Positions 2,483 through 13,332 of a stretch of DNA of 46,974 nt are shown one piece after another (positions within the stretch are counted from its first letter, which is position 1; every line of letters begins with the position of its first letter). The translations under genes and the position numbers were made by a program. The stretch is taken from assembly GCA_028715545.1 (NCBI GenBank), contig JAQURP010000004.1:1-46974 (forward strand), read 5' to 3'. Under the pieces are notes generated by a model. That model was not told the DNA's origin. It saw nothing but the letters and a program-made list of their open reading frames with translations, and did not search any database. Source of the DNA: Methanocellales archaeon (lineage in GTDB: Archaea; Halobacteriota; UBA148).

Positions 2483-3295
2483 ATGAATATAACGCAGTCT
2501 TTGTTGGATACTGAAAATGCCCTACGCGATTTTACTCAGGTTTTACTGCAAGCTAAATTCGGTGAAGAATGGATTATCCACTTGGGAATAACCGAAGATC
2601 GTGTTAACCAATGGAAATCCAGAATGGAAGAAGAGCGGAAAAGCCAACGTGCCGGAGCTGTGGAAGAGCATCTTCTTTATTACGCCGATTTTTATGATTT
2701 GCAGAAGATAATCGAGAAGAACTGGGAACAATTATTCAAGGACGTCTTCTTCGATTTAAAAGCTCTGCAAACATATTTCGACAAATTGCAAGATTTTCGA
2801 GATCAAGATGCCCATCGCAGGGAGTTGTTACTGTTCCAACAAAATCTTGTCATGGGCATTTGTGGGGAGATTCTTTCCCTTCTTGTAAAATATCGCAGCA
2901 ATATGGGGGGCCATTTCCCGCAAATCGAGTCAGCCCAGGATAGTTTAGGATCACTTTTGTTGCCTGGGCCGATAGTGCAATTCACTCTAACAAAGAAGGT
3001 ATTACGGCTGGTCCCAGTCGTTCTGACAGAAAAGGTGTTAAGGCCTGGTGACGAGGTTGAGTTTGTAATCACTGCGTCTGATATGGAGGGGGGAGAAATA
3101 GAATTTGCAATGGGGAAGGATTTTTGTGGGGGAAAATGGCAGAAGGACAATCATTTCAAATGGAGAATTGATGACTCTGATATAGGGAAAAAAACTGACC
3201 TTACTTTTTATATTCGAAGCATGCGGAAGCATCACGCAATGGGCGACTATGACGATTTTGTTAATTTCTCTTATAATCTAATTCCCAAGCGATGA
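2483..3295 (+). CDS. HEPN-domain protein (Swt1-like HEPN) with beta-rich C-terminal domain
   Basis: A 270-residue soluble protein. The N-terminal half (about 1-145) is predicted all-helical and contains RDQDAH at residues 106-111, a match to the R-X4-H motif of HEPN domains, within KLQDFRDQDAHRREL, which resembles the HEPN domain associated with Swt1-type proteins. HEPN domains are often RNases in toxin-antitoxin, CRISPR and abortive-infection systems, but some are non-catalytic. Residues about 165-270 are beta-strand-rich and Ig-like in pattern (LRPGDEVEFVITASD). No antitoxin or nucleotidyltransferase gene sits beside it. Function is inferred from the motif only; it could act in RNA cleavage, defence or as a binding protein. 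Confidence 0.6.
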   Translation: MNITQSLLDTENALRDFTQVLLQAKFGEEWIIHLGITEDRVNQWKSRMEEERKSQRAGAVEEHLLYYADFYDLQKIIEKNWEQLFKDVFFDLKALQTYFDKLQDFRDQDAHRRELLLFQQNLVMGICGEILSLLVKYRSNMGGHFPQIESAQDSLGSLLLPGPIVQFTLTKKVLRLVPVVLTEKVLRPGDEVEFVITASDMEGGEIEFAMGKDFCGGKWQKDNHFKWRIDDSDIGKKTDLTFYIRSMRKHHAMGDYDDFVNFSYNLIPKR

Positions 3296-3842: not shown

Positions 3843-4358
3843 TCAATATCCTTCTTTTCCTATTTTCCGGATTAATTTCAATAATCCTTTTATAATCTCT
3901 ATTGGTGTTGGGGGGTCTCCAGGAATCTTAACATCTACTGGTATTACTTTATCAACTGATCCTATAACTGCATAACTGTCTTTGAATATTCCACTACCAC
4001 AAGCATCATCACCCAGTGCAATGACCCATTTTGGTGAGGGTGTGGCTTCATAGGCCTTACGAAGAGGAGTAATCATGTTACAAGTCACTGGTCCAGTAAC
4101 TATTAATACATCAGCGTGTCTCGGAGAAGCTACAAAGGTAATCCCGTATTGTTCTATATCATAATAGGGATTTGTTAAATTAACTAATTCTATTTCAGGC
4201 GAGCCATCACTGCCGGTATCAACTTCTCTTAGGGCTATACTTCTGCCAAATACTGAACTGATGCTTCTTTTTAATTCAAGATGCAATCTTTTTAGTTCTT
4301 CATCATCTCTATTTTTTTTTGCTTTCGGAGCTATTATCTGGGAAGGGAGGTTATTCAT
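3843..4358 (-). CDS. Hydrogenase small-subunit/NuoB-like protein lacking all cluster-binding cysteines
   Basis: Homologous to NuoB and HycG/EchC, the subunit that normally holds the [4Fe-4S] cluster next to the active site. The fold markers are intact: YYDIEQYGI, ASPRHADVLIVTGPVT, and KWVIALGDDACGSGIFKDSYAV. The four ligand positions are all changed. In DTGxCxxCDIE the cysteines are Asp51 and Pro54, in GDCA the position is Asp118, and in PGCPP it is Asp148. A Cys at 120 is off-position. The subunit therefore should not bind the usual cluster. At 171 residues the length is normal, so this is not a decayed gene. A GGTGATT ribosome site ends two bases before the ATG. It is the last gene of the operon, eight bases after the large subunit. 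It resembles hydrogenase-related (Ehr-type) complexes. Confidence 0.9.
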   Translation of the reverse strand: MNNLPSQIIAPKAKKNRDDEELKRLHLELKRSISSVFGRSIALREVDTGSDGSPEIELVNLTNPYYDIEQYGITFVASPRHADVLIVTGPVTCNMITPLRKAYEATPSPKWVIALGDDACGSGIFKDSYAVIGSVDKVIPVDVKIPGDPPTPIEIIKGLLKLIRKIGKEGY

Positions 4359-4366
4359 TGAATCAC

Positions 4367-5929
4367 CTATAAATCATTGCCTTCGTAAGATAAGTTTAAG
4401 CTTTTATTAATCAAGGGGAAATCTGGCACAATATTTCCCATAACTGCATGCTCTATTGCATACCAGTTACAAAAAGAGGCAGTTCTTACCTTAAATCGAT
4501 CTATCTTTTTATTTTTAATATTAATAAACATGATATTTTGTCCTCTTGAGGATTCAACGATCGAAAAAGAACAACCATCTTTAATATCATAATTTACACT
4601 CATCTCACCTTTGGGCATATTTTTTATTATCCTCAAAATGATATTAGCTGAATTCTTAATCGTATTTGCCTTTATTCTGAATCTAGAAAGAACATCGCCT
4701 TGATTTAAAATTTTATTTGGATTCATAATTTGTTCATATGTCTTGGCATAAGGATGGCATATTCTTTCATCCTTATTTACTCCAGATGCTCTTGCCAGGG
4801 GGCCAGTAAGATTTAGCGGCTTAACCAAACTTTCTTTTATTATTCCTGTTGTTTCAAAACGATCAAGAACAGATGCGTTTTCTAGTATTTTCAAGAAAGA
4901 ACTCGTGAATTGTGAATAAAAATAGTTAAGATACTCTTCTAGTTCATCAAGAGTTTTAGAGTTTACATCTTTGCTTACACCACCTATTATTAACATCCCC
5001 TTGCAAAACCTTGACCCCGTCAGCCTCTCATTCCATCTTAATATCTCTTCCCGTAGATTAAAGAATTGGCTTGCTCCCATAGGGTAGGCTACATCAACAA
5101 TCATTCCTGCAATATCTCCTAACAAAGAATAAATACGCTCCATCTCAGCACATAATACTCTCAGGTGTTCTGCTCGTTTAGAGACTTTAATACCAGATAT
5201 CTTTTCTATTGCTATGCAATATGCAAGCGTATTTGCAATGGTCTCATCTCCGCAGATTGATTCTGCAAATACTACTCCTTCCTCGGGCGTTTTATTCTCG
5301 GCAGATTTTTCAATTCCCCTATGCTTCCAGAAATGCCTTATCTCAAGATTTAATATTGTCTCTCCTATAACATTGAAGCGAAAGTGACCAGGTGCAATTA
5401 TCCCTGCATGAATTGGTCCAACAGATATCTCGTACACGCCCTCTCCGTTTATTTTCTTAAAAAAATAATCTTCTGAAGGCGACACTTTACCTTTAAGTTT
5501 GAGATGTGCATTGGTAAAAGATTTTTTTAGGGGATGAAAACCCTCTGGGTAATATTCGTGTAAAAAAAGTTTTCGGGTATCGAATGAATGATTAAATTCA
5601 ATTCCAAACCCATCCTGCATCTCTCTTTCATATAACACTGCGGTAGGATATATTTGAGCAATGGATTCCGCATTATTATTTATTTTTGATTGTATGATTA
5701 GCAATTTTCTATAATCAGCTTTCTCAAAAACATAAATTAGAGTAATTCCTTTTTGGTTCTTGAAATTTTCAATCCCGAATTCTAAGATTAAATTAAAGTG
5801 TAAACTCTTTAAAGATTTTGAGATTTCCACAATCTCTTTAGGATTAATAAATACATATTCTTCTAAATCTGTTTCTTCATCATAGATAATTGAAGGGAAC
5901 AATTGTTTTAGCTGGTCTTTGTAACTCAT
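4367..5929 (-). CDS. HycE/NuoCD-like large subunit without a complete [NiFe] site
   Basis: A fusion of a NuoC-like domain (about 1-140, signature YEREMQDGFGIEF and YPEGFHPLKKSF) and a NuoD/hydrogenase large-subunit domain (GPIHAGIIAPGHFRF near 171, HRGIEK at 203-208), as in HycE/HyfG. [NiFe] hydrogenases bind nickel with two CxxC pairs. Here the first pair reads C226-G-D-E229 and the C-terminal DPCxxC is replaced by SLNLSYEGNDL, so only one of four ligands remains. Hydrogen chemistry is therefore not expected. I place the start at ATG 5929, one base past the upstream stop and preceded by a GGGGGT site, rather than at the TTG at 5944. At 520 residues it is full length. Function unknown; partner of the altered small subunit. 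Confidence 0.9.
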   Translation of the reverse strand: MSYKDQLKQLFPSIIYDEETDLEEYVFINPKEIVEISKSLKSLHFNLILEFGIENFKNQKGITLIYVFEKADYRKLLIIQSKINNNAESIAQIYPTAVLYEREMQDGFGIEFNHSFDTRKLFLHEYYPEGFHPLKKSFTNAHLKLKGKVSPSEDYFFKKINGEGVYEISVGPIHAGIIAPGHFRFNVIGETILNLEIRHFWKHRGIEKSAENKTPEEGVVFAESICGDETIANTLAYCIAIEKISGIKVSKRAEHLRVLCAEMERIYSLLGDIAGMIVDVAYPMGASQFFNLREEILRWNERLTGSRFCKGMLIIGGVSKDVNSKTLDELEEYLNYFYSQFTSSFLKILENASVLDRFETTGIIKESLVKPLNLTGPLARASGVNKDERICHPYAKTYEQIMNPNKILNQGDVLSRFRIKANTIKNSANIILRIIKNMPKGEMSVNYDIKDGCSFSIVESSRGQNIMFINIKNKKIDRFKVRTASFCNWYAIEHAVMGNIVPDFPLINKSLNLSYEGNDL

Positions 5930-5930
5930 T

Positions 5931-7379
5931 TCATAAACCCCCAAATCCTAATTGTGAACTAATCACATTCAAAAAATCGAATAAAATTTTGGGCATGTAA
6001 ACCCCAAGGAGAAGTAGCATTATTATCAATATAACAATTGGCATTTTCATATTTATGAAAATTGGATATTTTTCAGGTGTGTTTCCTTGTTCTGTCACTA
6101 TTCGCAAGATAAACCAAACAAATGAACTCGCTGCAATTAATATGAACATCAATAAGATGAAAGCTAAACTTAAAGATACCTTAGATAATGAAGCAATAAT
6201 AAAGAATTTTGGGATAAATATTGGGAACAAAGGCGTACCAATTATTGCAATGCTTCCAATTATCAAGCCCGTTGCTGCTAACGGTTGAAGTTTTAGCACA
6301 TTTCGTATCTCTCCCACTTTAACTGATCCGTATTGCCTATGAATTATGCCTGCTGAAAAGAACAAAAGTGCTTTGGTAAGTGCATGAGCCAACACATAAA
6401 ATAAGGTCCAAAAAAGATTTCCTACTGCAACACCTATAAGTATAAACCCCATATTTTCTATGCTAGAAAATGCTATTAATTTTTTGATATTTCTTCTTAC
6501 AGGCATACTAAAACCCGCAATACCCACAGTGATGATGCCAAAAACCAACAATACATTGGATGCTGTCTGACCATAAATTGTTGGATGAATTAAGGAATAC
6601 ATTCTTATAATTGCATAAATGCCTATATTTAGGACAACACTTGAAAGTAGAACACTTACATCAGAAGCTGCTTTAGCATGAGACGGAGGCAACCAGGCAT
6701 GAAATGGAACAATACCAGATTTAGCCGCAAATCCAATGTAAATTAATACAAACGAAAATAATAGCAGCTGAGGGCTGATCTGACCCGCTACTTGCAACAA
6801 CTCGTTCCAATTCAATGTTGGTTCTATGCCCGCACTTTTGCTTGCAGCAAATAAAAAAACAAGCCCGACAAGTGAAAATAACATTGCTGTTGAAGTAATA
6901 AAAATGTATTTAATAGCAGCAATTATATTCTCTTTGGCATTTAAAACAACTATGAGAACTGCTGAGATTATAGTTGTAATTTCAGCAAATATCCATAATA
7001 ATGCTAGATTATTTGATACGAATACACCTATTGTGCTTATAAACAGCAAGTTATAAGCAAGATAAAACAATTTTATATTGGATTCTTTAAGTTCATTTTC
7101 TTTAACTAATAAAAAAACATATCCTTTAGCATAAATAGATGCAAGGAAAAAAATTACCCCCGCTATAAGAATCTCATAAAGACTTAGCGCATCTATTGAA
7201 ACATAATTGTTGCTTAGCAAACTGATTGGGAGTGCTGCATACACAAATAAATAAATAGGAGTAACAATTGCAATCAAAGAATTGAATATTGTTAAAATAT
7301 TTATCAAGGCATTAGATTTGGCCAATATAATAATGATGAATGATAAAATGAAAAACAGTAATATTATGCCATATATCAT
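5931..7379 (-). CDS. HyfF/NuoN-like antiporter-type membrane subunit
   Basis: A roughly 14-helix membrane protein of the complex I/Mrp antiporter family (482 residues). It keeps the helix-5 glutamate (Glu133 in WIFAEITT) and the central lysine (Lys220 in GFAAKSGIVPFHAWLPPSHAKA) that form the proton channel in NuoL/M/N. The position often occupied by a second lysine on the following helix is Asn251; I am not sure this is unusual for HyfF-type subunits. A GGTGA site lies seven bases before the ATG. It follows the HyfE-like gene by 20 bases and precedes the large subunit by one base. Its presence implies that the complex moves ions across the membrane despite the altered catalytic arm. Confidence 0.9.
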   Translation of the reverse strand: MIYGIILLFFILSFIIIILAKSNALINILTIFNSLIAIVTPIYLFVYAALPISLLSNNYVSIDALSLYEILIAGVIFFLASIYAKGYVFLLVKENELKESNIKLFYLAYNLLFISTIGVFVSNNLALLWIFAEITTIISAVLIVVLNAKENIIAAIKYIFITSTAMLFSLVGLVFLFAASKSAGIEPTLNWNELLQVAGQISPQLLLFSFVLIYIGFAAKSGIVPFHAWLPPSHAKAASDVSVLLSSVVLNIGIYAIIRMYSLIHPTIYGQTASNVLLVFGIITVGIAGFSMPVRRNIKKLIAFSSIENMGFILIGVAVGNLFWTLFYVLAHALTKALLFFSAGIIHRQYGSVKVGEIRNVLKLQPLAATGLIIGSIAIIGTPLFPIFIPKFFIIASLSKVSLSLAFILLMFILIAASSFVWFILRIVTEQGNTPEKYPIFINMKMPIVILIIMLLLLGVYMPKILFDFLNVISSQLGFGGL

Positions 7380-7399: not shown

Positions 7400-8062
7400 C
7401 TATTTATGAAAAGGATTCAATTTATCATGGAATTTCTCAACAGAAGAATCCATCCCAAATCCAAGGATAGAGGTAACGGCTAATAACACTAACATGTCCA
7501 TTAAGATAAGAATCTCAATTAAAAAAGGTAGATCGCCTATGAAAATACTTAATAAAACAACGCCATTTTCCATCATAAGATATCCAATAATTTTTGTAAT
7601 TATCTTTTTTCTCGCAACAATGATAAGCATCCCTATGAGGATCATTGACACGCCAAGGACGATGCTGATATAATTAAGCGAATTTACTTGCAATTGTTCT
7701 TTTATTCCGAGAAACGAAAAGAATAACGTTCCAAAAATTATTAAACTCATAAATATTGATGTTGTTGGACTAAACAGATTATATTCTAAATCAACATATA
7801 TTTCCATGCTCTTTTGGGTTCTCTTCAGCATAATTGGAACTAATAGGCATTTGCTTATTAGAGTAAGCAAAGCAATGTACAGTAAAACTATTTTTTTATC
7901 TTCAAAAAAAATAAGAAGAACCAGTAATGAAAGAATAAAAGATTGAAATGAATATGTATTAATAAGAGAGATTAAATTTCTACGCGATACAGAAACTACT
8001 GTTAATAAGATGATTGTAACAATAAAGATCTTCTGCAGGTCAGTAAATAGTAATATATTCAT
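7400..8062 (-). CDS. HyfE-like (NuoK-related) membrane subunit
   Basis: A 220-residue protein with about six membrane helices. The C-terminal half matches the HyfE pattern of a basic ARKKIITKIIGY segment followed by MMENGVVLLS and a final helix rich in leucine. Glu165 in MMENG corresponds to the conserved NuoK glutamate. In Hyf-type complexes this subunit sits between the NuoH-like and NuoN-like proteins in the membrane arm. The start ATG overlaps the stop of the upstream HyfC-like gene (8059-8062), so the two are translationally coupled. The first 80 residues are poorly conserved. Confidence 0.82.
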   Translation of the reverse strand: MNILLFTDLQKIFIVTIILLTVVSVSRRNLISLINTYSFQSFILSLLVLLIFFEDKKIVLLYIALLTLISKCLLVPIMLKRTQKSMEIYVDLEYNLFSPTTSIFMSLIIFGTLFFSFLGIKEQLQVNSLNYISIVLGVSMILIGMLIIVARKKIITKIIGYLMMENGVVLLSIFIGDLPFLIEILILMDMLVLLAVTSILGFGMDSSVEKFHDKLNPFHK

Positions 8063-8991
8063 AGCAATACCTCAATTAATATTGTGATAAAAGATAAAAA
8101 ATAGCTCATTGCAAATAAATTAGATAAACGAAAAAACCTTAATTTTGCAACATTAGATTCAATTATGCCTATGCCAATAACAAATAACAGGCTTTTAATA
8201 AAAAACATGATTACTGCAATTGATAGTGTCATTATCTGCATTGTTGTGGAGACGCCAATGGGGATAAAAATATTAACAATAATGCCTATCAACACAAGTT
8301 GTTTTATTGCCGAAGACCATTCGATTAAAGCAAGATTTTTCCCTGATTGCTCCAAAACCATAGCTTCATGAATCATCGTAAGTTCTAAATGCGTTTCAGG
8401 ATTATCAACAGGTATCCTTGAACTTTCAGTAATAAGAATTATAATGAATGGAATAAATAATAACCACAAAAAAACATGATTCTGGCTAAGCAATGAGTTC
8501 TTAATAATTTCAAAAAAGTTAACACTATTAAAACTAAAAGCGACTGCAGCAAAAACCATTATGATGGTTGGCTCAATAATAGCCGACACGCTCATTTCTC
8601 TTGAGCTCCCCATACCTCCAAATGTGCTTCCAGCATCAAGACCGCTAAGAGCAATAAAAAATTTAGTTAACATTAGGATATATGAAAATAGGATAATATT
8701 CCCAAATATGTTTGAATTATTGGGGATAAATATAAGGGGTACAAATAATGACAACAAAAGTGAGCCTGTAAAGTCTACGTATGGGGTAACCCGTGTGATA
8801 AATGAAGAATTGCGGGAGTAAAGACTTTCTTTTTTCAGTAATTTGAAGATATTGCGATATGTTTGAACAACACTTGGGCCGTGCCTGCCTTGAAGAATAG
8901 CTTTAACCTTTTTAATTACAGAAATATATAAAGGTGATAAAAATAACACTAAGGTTAGGTTTGCAATAGCAAATAATAAAAAGCCATTCAT
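8059..8991 (-). CDS. HyfC/NuoH-like membrane subunit
   Basis: The 310-residue membrane protein that normally links the catalytic arm to the pump subunits (HycD/HyfC/NuoH family). The diagnostic segment ESSRIPVDNPETHLELTMIHEAMVLEQSG-like is present and well conserved, with the acidic residues thought to couple redox changes to proton movement. The loop DAGSTFGGMGSSRE is also typical. A GGGGTGATT site lies five bases before the ATG. The start overlaps the end of the HyfB-like gene by four bases. Strong conservation of this coupling subunit next to metal-free catalytic subunits suggests it is still under selection for energy coupling. Confidence 0.9.
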   Translation of the reverse strand: MNGFLLFAIANLTLVLFLSPLYISVIKKVKAILQGRHGPSVVQTYRNIFKLLKKESLYSRNSSFITRVTPYVDFTGSLLLSLFVPLIFIPNNSNIFGNIILFSYILMLTKFFIALSGLDAGSTFGGMGSSREMSVSAIIEPTIIMVFAAVAFSFNSVNFFEIIKNSLLSQNHVFLWLLFIPFIIILITESSRIPVDNPETHLELTMIHEAMVLEQSGKNLALIEWSSAIKQLVLIGIIVNIFIPIGVSTTMQIMTLSIAVIMFFIKSLLFVIGIGIIESNVAKLRFFRLSNLFAMSYFLSFITILIEVLL

Positions 8992-10946
8992 CTGATAATC
9001 ACCCCTAAATACAGTAATAAGGAAATAATTGCAAAAAAACTAATTAGGATGTAGGGGTATAACTCAACTCTATTTTGTAAAGAGTATAAAACAGACGAAA
9101 CTTTGCTAATTACCCTGAAAACAGGCATATATAAGTACTCTTCAAAAAATTTTATCAAACTAATCTTTGCTTCACCTTCTTTAAAGAATACCCCATCCGG
9201 ATCATAAAATGACTTTTTATTAACAAGTTTTGGTTTATAGATGCTGCTAAAAATGGTGGTGACTGGCTGTGAAAATCCTGATGCAGTGTATTCCATACGT
9301 CCATTTTGCGAATTTATCCCGCACCCCCATGTTTCGGTTACTCTGGATTTATTATTACCGACCATTTTCATTATAAGGTAGGTCAAGCCTCCTAAAAATA
9401 CGGCAATCATTGATAAGATGAGAAGATTAGGTAAAGAAAAATTTATTCCAACTTTTTGCCCAATCACTTCGAATATCTGGTAAGAAAAAACTCCTAACGC
9501 TATACAAAATATTGCAATTATTGCTGGTCCGATTATCATAGAAGAATCAACTTCTTTTGCGGATTCTGCTTCTTTTGATCTGGGTGACGCCAAAAAAACT
9601 ATTCCAAATGCTTTTACAAAACATACCGCTGCCAAAGTGCTGGTCAATGCAAATAAAGATAATGATAAAATAAGGATTATTTTAATTATTGGTGACGATA
9701 AAACGTTAAATTTTAAGAACACTTGAAAAATCATCAATTCGCTTACAAATCCATTGAACGGAGGCAAGGCACTTATAGAAATTGCGCCTATTAAAAACAA
9801 TAGCGCAGTATAAGGCATTTTCTTGATCAATCCACCCATCTCTTCAATGTTTTTCGTATTCATCCTATACACAACCGAGCCCGAGCTTAAGAAAAGCAAA
9901 CTCTTGAAAAGAGCATGATTGAGGGTGTGAAATAACGCCGCAAATATGGAAATCATAGCCAAATCCCTGACTTGATAAAATGAGAATATCATATAAAGGC
10001 CGACTCCCAATAGAATAATGCCTATATTTTCGATGCTATGGTATGCAAGCAGCCTTTTGATGTCATGTTCCTTTAGCGCATAAATTACTCCTAATAACGC
10101 GGACACAGTGCCTGCAATCAGTATAAGAATTCCCCACCATAACTGCTGTTCTGGTAAAAGGAAGAGAAATCTGAGGAAACCATAGATTGCAACTTTAATC
10201 ATCACGCCGGACATTAAGGCAGAGATGGAAGATGGGCTTGCAGGATGAGCATAAGGCAACCATTTGTGGAAAGGGATTACTCCTGCTTTAATGGCAAAAC
10301 CCGCTGTTAAAGACAAAAAAATCAGTGATGCTAATGGTGCAGATAAACCTTGTAACGGGGTGTAATCAAGACTATTAGTGTGGTTATAAATCAGGGTAAA
10401 AGCAAAGATTAAGAAGATTGTGCTCATCTGAGTCATAACAAAATAGAATATGCCTGCTTTTTTTGTTTCTTTTTTATCATAATCAAACATAACTAACATG
10501 AATGAAGAAATAGACATCAATTCCCAGAAAAAGAGAAATGCAATTAAATTGTGAGATGCGACAACAAATACCATTGATAGGATAAAGAATGCTGTTAAGG
10601 AAACTAGCAAGTTTCTTTTAATTTCATTCTCAAAATGTTCGGAATAAGAAATAGAATATATGGCGACCGATAAACCAATTAAACTTATCAATATAATAAA
10701 AAAGGATGCCAAATTATCAATAGAGAGATTAAAAGTAAATCCTGATAGCAGTATGTGAAAATTGACTGTTTCATGCACCAGAACATTAAAAGAAAAGAAC
10801 AACAAACCAGTACAAGCAATGATTAGCGTGAACAAGGATAATTTCCGTATTAGACTTTTTTTTGCGTTGATACAAATTAAGGGAATAATTATTGAAACCG
10901 CAAAAAGAAGCATACTTGACTGAAATATTATCTGAGAATAAGTCAT
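8988..10946 (-). CDS. HyfB/NuoL-like antiporter-type membrane subunit
   Basis: The first gene of the operon; 652 residues and about 16 helices in the HyfB/HycC pattern. The proton-channel residues are in place: Glu142 (FFWELMSISS), Lys220 (GFAIKAGVIPFHKWLPYAHPASPS) and Lys251 (GVMIKVAIYGFLRF). The C-terminal soluble part contains ETWGCGI and MEYTASGFSQP, typical of hydrogenase-4 HyfB and not of NuoL. I place the start at ATG 10946, because an extended ribosome site (10953-10962) ends six bases before it; the upstream ATG at 10958 falls inside that site. The six genes are contiguous or overlapping, so they form one operon. No ferredoxin-like (HyfH/NuoI) gene is included. Confidence 0.92.
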   Translation of the reverse strand: MTYSQIIFQSSMLLFAVSIIIPLICINAKKSLIRKLSLFTLIIACTGLLFFSFNVLVHETVNFHILLSGFTFNLSIDNLASFFIILISLIGLSVAIYSISYSEHFENEIKRNLLVSLTAFFILSMVFVVASHNLIAFLFFWELMSISSFMLVMFDYDKKETKKAGIFYFVMTQMSTIFLIFAFTLIYNHTNSLDYTPLQGLSAPLASLIFLSLTAGFAIKAGVIPFHKWLPYAHPASPSSISALMSGVMIKVAIYGFLRFLFLLPEQQLWWGILILIAGTVSALLGVIYALKEHDIKRLLAYHSIENIGIILLGVGLYMIFSFYQVRDLAMISIFAALFHTLNHALFKSLLFLSSGSVVYRMNTKNIEEMGGLIKKMPYTALLFLIGAISISALPPFNGFVSELMIFQVFLKFNVLSSPIIKIILILSLSLFALTSTLAAVCFVKAFGIVFLASPRSKEAESAKEVDSSMIIGPAIIAIFCIALGVFSYQIFEVIGQKVGINFSLPNLLILSMIAVFLGGLTYLIMKMVGNNKSRVTETWGCGINSQNGRMEYTASGFSQPVTTIFSSIYKPKLVNKKSFYDPDGVFFKEGEAKISLIKFFEEYLYMPVFRVISKVSSVLYSLQNRVELYPYILISFFAIISLLLYLGVIIR

Positions 10947-10952
10947 CTTACT

Positions 10953-10962
10953 GATCATCTCC
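10953..10962 (-). promoter_or_regulatory. Extended Shine-Dalgarno site of the hydrogenase-like operon
   Basis: GGAGATGATC on the minus strand matches nine of ten positions of the anti-16S sequence (GGAGGTGATC), spaced six bases from ATG 10946. It contains an earlier in-frame ATG (10958), which it argues against as the start. Confidence 0.65.
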
Positions 10963-11066
10963 GTTTAAAAACGACCAAAAGTAACAAACAAAGGTTCACT
11001 TACAAACAAGATTTTTAGGCTTGAATATATTGGGTGTCATAAGTCTCTGCTGAATCATTGAACTTG

Positions 11067-11074
11067 TATATAAA
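11067..11074 (-). promoter_or_regulatory. TATA box for the hydrogenase-like operon
   Basis: TTTATATA on the minus strand, preceded by an A-rich stretch, sits in the 360-base gap between hisD and the operon. It would place the transcript start near 11045 and give a leader of about 100 bases, long for an archaeon and compatible with leader-based control. The rest of the gap is AT-rich and shows nothing else definite. Confidence 0.45.
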
Positions 11075-11280
11075 TCTATCATTTCACATTTTTTTATTCC
11101 CTATTTCATACTTTTCTCATAGAAAATTCTAATATCCAAGGGACTAAAAGCCCCCTTTTATAAAATTCTTTTCATGCTAATCTTAATTCATATAGAAACT
11201 AATGTAGTTTTAGCACTTTTTGAGCAATTATGCAAAAACAATTAGGTCAAACTAATCAAGAACTAAAAATCAGAAGTTAC

Positions 11281-11311
11281 AGCCTCAGAGCCGTAAATAT
11301 TATTCGAGGCT
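11281..11311 (-). terminator. Hairpin after hisD, possible terminator
   Basis: The arms AGCCTC (11281-11286) and GAGGCT (11306-11311) pair perfectly around a 19-base loop, ten bases past the hisD stop, with a short T run further downstream on the minus strand. Stem length is modest. Confidence 0.35.
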
Positions 11312-11321
11312 TTCTATTCTC

Positions 11322-12620
11322 TCATTCCTCAAATCTCTTCCTAATGGAATCCGCATGGATTTCAAACCCCTCTGCCCTGGCAAGCGCTATTATGTCATCT
11401 TTTATGCTGCTCAATCCTTCCTTACTGAGAATCTGGATGCTTGTCTTCTTTATGAAGTGGTCCACGTTCAGACCAGAAAATACCCTGGCATATCCTCCTG
11501 TAGGTAGAACGTGATTGGTTCCATACGCATAATCGCCTCCTGCTACTGGAGAATAATCTCCGATGAAGATTGAGCCAGCATGTTTGATCTTCTTCAACAC
11601 GCTCAGGGTATCTGATGTCATCAGCTCCAAATGCTCTGGAGCGAATTTATTGACGAATTCGATCCCCTCCTCAAGATCGCTCACAGTCAGAATGGCGCTA
11701 CGCTCTAGTGCTTTTGCTATGATGTCATTTCGCTGCTCTTTTTTCCCTTGCACTTTCAACTCGCTACTCACAGCTTTCGCTAGTTCATCGGAGGTCGTGA
11801 TTAGGACGGAAAGGGACATGGGACCGTGCTCAGCCTGTGCGACCATATCTGATGCGATGATCGACGCTTTTTTGTTCAAGCTTTGATTAAGAGGTTGATC
11901 TGCAAGGATCATGACCTCACTGGGACCAGCAGGAAAATCTATTTCAACCTCGTTACGCACCAGCATTTTAGCAGCGGTTACGTAGACGTTTCCAGGGCCA
12001 ACGATCTTATCAACCTTTGGTATCGTTTCCGTACCATAGGCCATCGCAGCTATGGACTGAGCTCCACCCACCTTATATACGCTATCTGCCCCGGCGATGT
12101 TTGTGGCAACTAGTGTGAGTGGATCTATCTTTCCGTCTGGCTTGGGCGGAGTGCATACTATAACATCTTCTACACCCGCTACCTTTGCGGGAATGACTGT
12201 CATCAAAGCTGTCGATGGATAAGATGCCAAACCACCGGGCACATATGCACCTACGCACTCTAAGGGCTCAATCTTTTGACCTAACACTATTCCGGGTGCA
12301 AATTCTGACAGCCACAGATCCTCTTTCAATTGTTCTCCATGGAATGCTGCAATGTTTAGCGACGTATTCTCTAGATGTCTGATGAGTTCTTTGTCTAGAG
12401 ACCTTTCTGCCTCTTGTAACTCCTCCTCTGTGACCTCTAGCTCTTTAAGTTCAACCCCATCGAACTCCTTGGTGTACTTGATTAGGGCAGCATCGCCTTT
12501 TTCTTGTACATCTGCTAGGATGCTCTTTACACATTCCATCGACTTTTGCAGAGCAATTTCTCTATGTAACAATCGCTCAATTTCAGTGTCGCTCAACTCC
12601 GAGAGCCGTTTAATTATCAT
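11322..12620 (-). CDS. hisD: Histidinol dehydrogenase
   Basis: Catalyses the last two steps of histidine synthesis, oxidising L-histidinol to L-histidine with NAD+. The 432 residues are the normal length. Zinc-ligand regions are visible: MVAQAEHGP (Gln and His), VAGGDYAYGTNHVLPTGGYAR (Asp) and the C-terminal RAEGFEIHADSIRKR (His). The NAD-binding segment KIVGPGNVYVTAAKMLV is also clear. It overlaps the upstream phosphopantoate ligase gene by 11 bases and so is the last gene of a CoA-biosynthesis operon; no other his genes are adjacent, although a HisA-like gene lies 6 kb away. The link between histidine and CoA genes is probably only operonic convenience. Confidence 0.95.
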   Translation of the reverse strand: MIIKRLSELSDTEIERLLHREIALQKSMECVKSILADVQEKGDAALIKYTKEFDGVELKELEVTEEELQEAERSLDKELIRHLENTSLNIAAFHGEQLKEDLWLSEFAPGIVLGQKIEPLECVGAYVPGGLASYPSTALMTVIPAKVAGVEDVIVCTPPKPDGKIDPLTLVATNIAGADSVYKVGGAQSIAAMAYGTETIPKVDKIVGPGNVYVTAAKMLVRNEVEIDFPAGPSEVMILADQPLNQSLNKKASIIASDMVAQAEHGPMSLSVLITTSDELAKAVSSELKVQGKKEQRNDIIAKALERSAILTVSDLEEGIEFVNKFAPEHLELMTSDTLSVLKKIKHAGSIFIGDYSPVAGGDYAYGTNHVLPTGGYARVFSGLNVDHFIKKTSIQILSKEGLSSIKDDIIALARAEGFEIHADSIRKRFEE

Positions 12621-13332
12621 GCTTGATCCTACTCTGTAAGTTTACTTCATTATCGAATGCATCTATTATCTCTTTCATCTCTCTCTTATTCATGTATCTT
12701 AATTCTTCGGACAAATTTACCATATTTGGTATTGCTCTGACCACATTATCCACAATCGTTATGTTCGCAGTTCTGGAAGTTCTACTCAGTGGATTCAGAT
12801 CTATCGCTATGACGGTTTTACCCATGTGTACAAGAGCTTCACATCTATCCCCATCCTCCAAGGGCACGAGAACTACATCCGCTCCATAAATCCCCTTTTT
12901 TTCCACCTTTCCCCTTTCATGCTTTATGCCTATTATGCTTGAATCAGCCTTCTTTCCAAGTATGTTTGTTGCTCCATGTGCCTTTAGATGGGCTATTATC
13001 TTGTCAATGCGCTCTTCAGTGCGATGAAACAGGTTCACCTCAAGAGGTGCACCTATGCTTTCACTTAATCGCACGATCTCATCTGGTACCAGTGCAGCGG
13101 TGTTACCGTTTACAGATATGGTGGGGTGAGCCGCCATCAACAAAGTTGCAACGGCAACCATCGTCGCATGCATTGCCGCCTTGGTGGTTTTTTCCCCGAT
13201 TAGGTAATCAAATGCCTCGCCCCTACCGTGGGCTATCAAACCTTGCGTACAGACGATGCCAGACTCATATCCTCTCACGAGCCTCTCCCTGATCATCAAT
13301 GATATGTAGCGAGGGTGATCCTTTGGTATCAT
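12610..13332 (-). CDS. 4-phosphopantoate--beta-alanine ligase (archaeal phosphopantothenate synthetase)
   Basis: Joins 4-phosphopantoate and beta-alanine with ATP to give 4'-phosphopantothenate. This is the archaeal alternative to pantothenate synthetase plus pantothenate kinase. The 240-residue sequence matches the former DUF137 family: it opens with IPKDHPRYISLMIRERLV and contains the nucleotide-binding segments SVNGNTAALVP, NLFHRTEERI and DLNPLSRTSRTANITIVDN. It overlaps pantoate kinase by four bases (ATGA) and hisD by 11, so the genes are translationally coupled. The substrate is supplied by the kinase directly upstream and the product is used by CoaBC, the first gene of the operon. Confidence 0.93.
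   Translation of the reverse strand: MIPKDHPRYISLMIRERLVRGYESGIVCTQGLIAHGRGEAFDYLIGEKTTKAAMHATMVAVATLLMAAHPTISVNGNTAALVPDEIVRLSESIGAPLEVNLFHRTEERIDKIIAHLKAHGATNILGKKADSSIIGIKHERGKVEKKGIYGADVVLVPLEDGDRCEALVHMGKTVIAIDLNPLSRTSRTANITIVDNVVRAIPNMVNLSEELRYMNKREMKEIIDAFDNEVNLQSRIKHDN

Follow-up and report, generated by a model that had tools for sequence, protein, structure and literature searches.

The window, by which we mean the whole 46,974-nucleotide stretch of DNA analysed here, encodes a six-subunit complex of the Ehr (energy-converting-hydrogenase-related) type that, judged from its sequence, has probably lost its electron path entirely and would work as a redox-silent ion-translocating machine. 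The ligands of the [NiFe] site, of cluster N2 and of the ferredoxin clusters are gone, and purifying selection has kept the folds of the small (S) and large (L) subunits, the coupling loops and the ion-path residues. We infer that the complex no longer passes electrons. A conserved, apparently redox-free relative of complex I is a more important result than the acidic pocket of S, with which an earlier note on this DNA was concerned; that note had not noticed the loss of the electron path.

The operon holds six genes of the HyfB-C-E-F-G-I type, all on the minus strand, in the order B, C, E, F, L and S, with S last. B (656 aa, 8988-10958), an antiporter-like subunit of the HyfB/NuoL type, matches NF006418 above cut-off and HycC (7z0s_C) with an E-value of 1e-79; C (310 aa, 8059-8991), of the HyfC/NuoH type, matches PF00146 and HycD (7z0s_D, E 3e-37); and F (482 aa, 5931-7379), an antiporter-like subunit of the HyfF/NuoM-N type, matches PF00361 and NF006427 above cut-off. 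The membrane subunit E (220 aa, 7400-8062) is assigned to the HyfE type by its conserved operon position and by a match to NF008556 (HyfE) that lies below cut-off (E 5e-15). Across seven close pairs, all six genes showed dN/dS values of 0.04-0.25. A search for a ferredoxin subunit in the first 14 kb of the window, which hold the operon, returned no ORF with a CxxCxxCxxxC motif and no HyfH match, and alignment of the six subunits revealed no conserved set of cysteines able to bind a cluster. We sampled 394 genomes of the phylum; the same gene order, again with an S devoid of the cluster cysteines, was present in 32 of them, which belong to several families. Beside the operon, at 2483-3295 on the plus strand, the window contains a gene with a weak match to Swt1-like HEPN (PF18731, 28.5 bits, just above cut-off).

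The membrane arm retains the antiporter residues E146, K224, H238 and K352 in B and E133, K220 and K336 in F, together with the E-channel acids E140, E189, D196, E203 and E214 in C, and all of these are kept in archaeal, CPR and four-Cys members of the family. B also has an invariant cysteine, Cys546, which falls in the alignment in the region of Cys537 of the HycC ND3 loop, a residue that in FHL contacts the beta1-beta2 loop (PMC9474812). The coupling parts described for FHL are the ND3, beta1-beta2, NDUFS7 and ND1 loops and the E-channel (PMC9474812).

S (171 aa, 3843-4358, minus strand) was identified as a NuoB/HyfI/MbhJ-type small subunit by Pfam (PF01058 Oxidored_q6, 88.1 bits for a cut-off of 27) and by its AF2 fold; a search of the window's genome gave no other NuoB-like match, which leaves the operon S as the sole one. 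Alignment with P. furiosus MbhJ (6cfw_J, phmmer E 9.5e-31) brought all four ligand motifs into register without gaps, GSCNGCDIE of MbhJ corresponding to GSDGSPEIE, GACPTGG to GDDACGSG, and PGCPP to PGDPP. The one-time cluster cysteines are replaced by Asp51 (codon GAT, 4206-4208), Pro54 (CCT, 4197-4199), Asp118 (GAT, the second of the adjoining Asp117-Asp118 codons at 4005-4010) and Asp148 (GAC, 3915-3917), all on the minus strand and just as the earlier note had read them, and 0 of the 4 ligands of the N2/proximal [4Fe-4S] cluster are left. A change from a Cys codon (TGT or TGC) to an Asp codon (GAT or GAC) takes two base changes. Since four Cys are present in every outgroup small subunit of group 4 or complex I that is readable at all four positions, the loss in S is not a matter of chance. 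The same note had argued that Cys-to-Asp changes of this kind are unlikely by drift, and indeed the change from Cys to acid is real, selected and shared by some 30 species within this phylum. S itself is under purifying selection (dN/dS 0.06-0.25 in seven close pairs). Its AF2 model, made with 42 relatives, has a mean pLDDT of 92.3, and the best fold match is again MbhJ (6cfw_J, TM 0.90, rmsd 1.9 A); because the model superposes on MbhJ, the pocket appears to have kept its shape after losing its ligands.

The large subunit L (525 aa, 4367-5944, minus strand), assigned to the HyfG/NuoCD type by AF2 modelling and alignment, gave a model with a pLDDT of 89.1 and HycE (7z0s_E, TM 0.92) as its best fold match. 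Its [NiFe] motifs are replaced, ICGDE standing for CGIC and a C-terminal LNLSYEGNDL for DPCxxC, and the L1 and L2 motifs are absent from L family-wide. At the L1 position the window has one isolated Cys (SICGDE), where the sister species has Gly and most relatives Ser; there is none at L2. Near the one-time [NiFe]/quinone site, H179, G232, D233, R467 and N513, and further K514, S515, S519, Y520 and D524 of the cavity, do not vary among the 32 aligned members. Because these residues are invariant, the L cavity retains a role common to the Cys-less and the four-Cys forms.

The archaeal relatives have Asp at position 51 of S in 32/32 cases, Asp or Glu at 118 in 32/32 and Asn at 148 in 31/32. The sister species (L005/L060) also has Asn at 148, and the alignment shows Asp148 of the window to be a private and probably recent change. 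The residues shift further in CPR bacteria, where position 51 is T, S, A or D, 118 is D or G and 148 is D or N, the sets found at 51/54/118/148 including T-E-G-D, T-C-D-D and D-C-D-N. The three Asp are therefore not invariant among homologues, and the alignment rules out three invariant Asp as a single metal site.

Asp117, next to Asp118 and not mentioned in the earlier note, is part of the same pocket, and we counted residues at 51, 54, 117, 118 and 148 in the 66 distinct archaeal and CPR small subunits classed as Cys-less. The patterns were DTDDN (23), TEDGD (12), DCDDD (7), TCDDD (6), SEDGD and DADDN (4 each), DADEN (3), DCDDN (2) and five singletons, among them DPDDD of the window. Three carboxylates were found over these positions in 57 of the 66, four in 8 and two in 1, and clear four-Cys forms had 0. 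Position 117 was Asp in 64/66 (S, A, T or V in four-Cys forms) and position 148 was only ever Asn or Asp, and the acids trade places via E54 and D117 with their total count held. The narrow spread of this count (p = 0.004 in a column shuffle that treats the 13 distinct patterns as independent and ignores relatedness) is an indication, not proof. Since 65/66 Cys-less subunits carry three or four carboxylates and the four-Cys forms none, the selected unit is a small carboxylate patch and not three Asp. What stands of the acidic site put forward in the earlier note is that variation at its positions is constrained; by that note's own criterion a fixed site of three Asp is refuted, and replacement of the cluster charge or binding of a cation fits the data better than three Asp ligands.

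Most simply, the carboxylate patch would replace the negative charge and the hydrogen bonding of the cluster. In the mechanism that we propose, the three or four carboxylates of the one-time N2 pocket would stand in both for this charge and for the cluster as a structural staple, acting purely by hydrogen bonding or with a cation bound in the pocket. The main rival reading is a true mononuclear metal site, though we regard it as doubtful; in it the pocket carboxylates would coordinate a hard cation (Mg2+, Ca2+, Mn2+ or Na+) with a structural role or one that is transported or sensed. It would account for the retention of at least three acids despite their moving (D51/D117/D118 in archaea; E54/D117/D148 or D117/D118/D148 in CPR) and for the restriction of position 148 to Asn or Asp in 66/66, but the shifting ligand positions run contrary to one strict coordination geometry, the CPR member L097 has only two acids, L135 has two acids and one Cys, and no metal is present in the AF2 model.

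Relatives that have kept their cysteines show what was lost together with them. Four-Cys sisters in families f30, f36 and f11 of the same phylum (L038-L042) have the order B-C-E-F-L-Fd-S, with a 2x[4Fe-4S] ferredoxin gene or domain (CxxCxxCxxxC) between L and S, an S with four Cys, and an L likewise without [NiFe] cysteines. Since the [NiFe] cysteines are absent and the ferredoxin and the four Cys are present, they look like ordinary Ehr complexes. In most of these operons S is directly followed by a gene of 144-161 aa (6589-7020 in L039; also in L040 and L042, and on the opposite strand in L041), which is Usp-type by Pfam in L039 and L041; the genes of L040 and L042 resemble it in their length and position. 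In CPR bacteria (Patescibacteria) the order is S-B-C-E-F-L, with no ferredoxin and a Cys-less S. No ferredoxin gene or domain was present in 23 Cys-less operons of archaea and 9 whole ones of CPR bacteria. Besides the Cys-containing sisters there is an apparent INTERMEDIATE: L097, in which a half-eroded ferredoxin goes with a Cys-less S. Its fused ferredoxin-S protein (8656-9402, minus strand) reads D, A, D, N at the ligand positions of S, and its ferredoxin domain has lost 3 of 4 Cys from one of the two [4Fe-4S] motifs, the other being intact. L135 has kept one of the four Cys of S. Because every four-Cys S of this syntenic family comes with a ferredoxin, Cys-less operons are without one and L097 lies between, we conclude that within the family the presence of the cluster cysteines and that of the ferredoxin gene are linked. 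In a tree of B, C, E, F and L, the four-Cys clade fell beside the CPR clade with a support of 81, and a topology holding all Cys-less members together was not rejected (AU p 0.317, with the long-branched L097 left out). The tree thus favours neither one loss nor several firmly, and a single loss of the cysteines is compatible with it.

We propose that the ancestor was an Ehr complex that was stripped of its whole electron path. The membrane arm would still translocate ions, as an antiporter or as a pump, and the L/S module would serve as a ligand-binding regulator or as the drive of the two antiporter-like subunits, coupled to them conformationally or electrostatically. An ion gradient, the binding of a ligand and some non-redox reaction are candidate drives. 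An unlinked ferredoxin or flavin partner may exist, although with no cluster at the N2 position no known path would lead to the L cavity. The loss of redox centres is judged from Cys ligands, and cofactors held without Cys ligation may remain. Going further, the window might encode a natural homologue of complex I that couples some non-redox event to the translocation of ions via the intact complex I coupling path. In the old [NiFe]/quinone cavity this event would be the binding or conversion of a small molecule (e.g. formate, CO2 or bicarbonate); at the old N2 site it would involve an ion. We hold this more specific idea to be rather unlikely.

Formate also figures in a different explanation, namely that the complex is still a redox enzyme, in which a separately encoded ferredoxin, flavoprotein or formate dehydrogenase feeds electrons directly to a substrate bound in the one-time [NiFe]/quinone cavity of L and bypasses the N2 position. 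Genes for formate dehydrogenase A/B and beta-carbonic anhydrase adjoin the operon in three lineages (L059/L105, L037 and the four-Cys L041), and a formate/nitrite transporter gene lies near the L059 and L041 operons, none being seen at L037. For Margulisbacteria, complexes of the FDH-Ehr kind have been proposed (PMC6349859), which points in the same direction, as does the conservation in 32/32 of the L cavity residues G232, D233, N513, K514, S515, S519, Y520 and D524. Such an enzyme is nevertheless improbable, since no encoded cluster lies within electron-transfer distance of the L cavity, the Fdh linkage is absent from most Cys-less operons, including that of the window and all CPR loci, and the Fdh genes of L059/L105 are convergent with the operon and not co-transcribed with it. 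As a functional clue, the formate dehydrogenase, carbonic anhydrase and transporter neighbours are a weak lead, and the window shares nothing with them. The formate dehydrogenase/beta-carbonic anhydrase neighbourhood of L059 extends over 9300-12826, and the arrangement differs among L059, L037 and L041. As for the host, methyl-coenzyme M reductase was absent from 11/11 genomes of the window's order, and the window organism is therefore not a methanogen.

It seems very improbable to us that the operon is degenerate, the remains of an Ehr complex in decay since its redox function was lost. L097 does appear half-eroded, and the S dN/dS of 0.25 in the pair formed by the window and its sister is the highest of the operon, but none of the six genes is broken, their dN/dS is low in seven pairs, 32 genomes of the phylum and many of CPR bacteria have conserved the operon, and the composition of the pocket is strongly constrained. 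A sequencing, assembly or alignment artefact can be dismissed, for although the window comes from a draft genome of 76 contigs, the same D/acid/N pattern is seen in independent genomes, including the finished single-contig L055, L057 and L059, and the motif alignment is ungapped.

How complex I couples its redox reaction to distant membrane proton pumps is a long-standing question. Being free of redox centres while selection maintains its coupling loops, E-channel and antiporter residues, the family offers a natural experiment on this question, in which the driver of the retained coupling parts cannot be the usual electron chemistry. Both methanogens and tiny CPR bacteria have conserved the same apparently redox-free complex, and relatives in genetically tractable Methanosarcina-type genomes make the question testable. 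The graded series, from four Cys with ferredoxin through the half-eroded form to the fully Cys-less one, shows how an electron-driven complex can be converted.

Among known systems, the closest comparison is with the Ehr complexes themselves, for which Marreiros et al. 2013 is reportedly the key classification paper. The complex of the window resembles them in its group-4-hydrogenase-like core, its antiporter-like subunits and its lack of [NiFe] cysteines (PMC6349859, PMC10284858). Published accounts of Ehr complexes note the absence of [NiFe] ligands and give the function as unknown (PMC10284858, PMC6349859). Redox-coupled ion transport has been proposed for them, whereas the window complex is also without the ferredoxin subunit and the S cluster; the Ehr iron-sulfur wire is missing from it and present only in the sister clade L038-L042. 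With the group 4 [NiFe] hydrogenases (E. coli FHL/Hyf and P. furiosus MBH) it shares the subunits B-C-E-F-G-I, the S and L folds (TM 0.90 and 0.92), an ND3-loop-type Cys and the E-channel acids, but not the [NiFe] ligands, the proximal [4Fe-4S] ligands or the HyfH/HycF-type ferredoxin subunit. With respiratory complex I and Fpo it shares homologous S (NuoB), L (NuoC+D), C (NuoH) and B/F (NuoL/M/N) subunits and proton-path residues, and differs from them in having no N2, no NuoI and no electron-input module. Mrp Na+/H+ antiporters are similar in their antiporter-like subunits, as seen in B and F, and dissimilar in that the window complex has S and L modules; no Pfam match to MrpE/F/G-type subunits was found among the six operon genes. 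Genes similar to hyc have been mentioned in M. acetivorans with no function given (PMC13224831). In the open-licence literature we found no Ehr-type complex described as missing the proximal cluster and the ferredoxin subunit as well, and, judged on that literature, the Cys-less, ferredoxin-less Ehr-type complex is provisionally new. A precedent for reuse of such parts exists in DAB2, where a NuoL-like subunit belongs to a redox-free machine driven by the proton motive force (PMC13144422). The DAB/MpsAB inorganic-carbon pumps thus resemble the window complex in their redox-free reuse of a NuoL-type antiporter-like subunit (PMC13144422), but they consist of DabA, which is beta-carbonic-anhydrase-like, and one NuoL-like protein, and none of the six operon proteins matches a DabA-type Pfam family. 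By analogy, the window complex may work partly like DAB while not being a DAB member, since it keeps the whole Ehr core.
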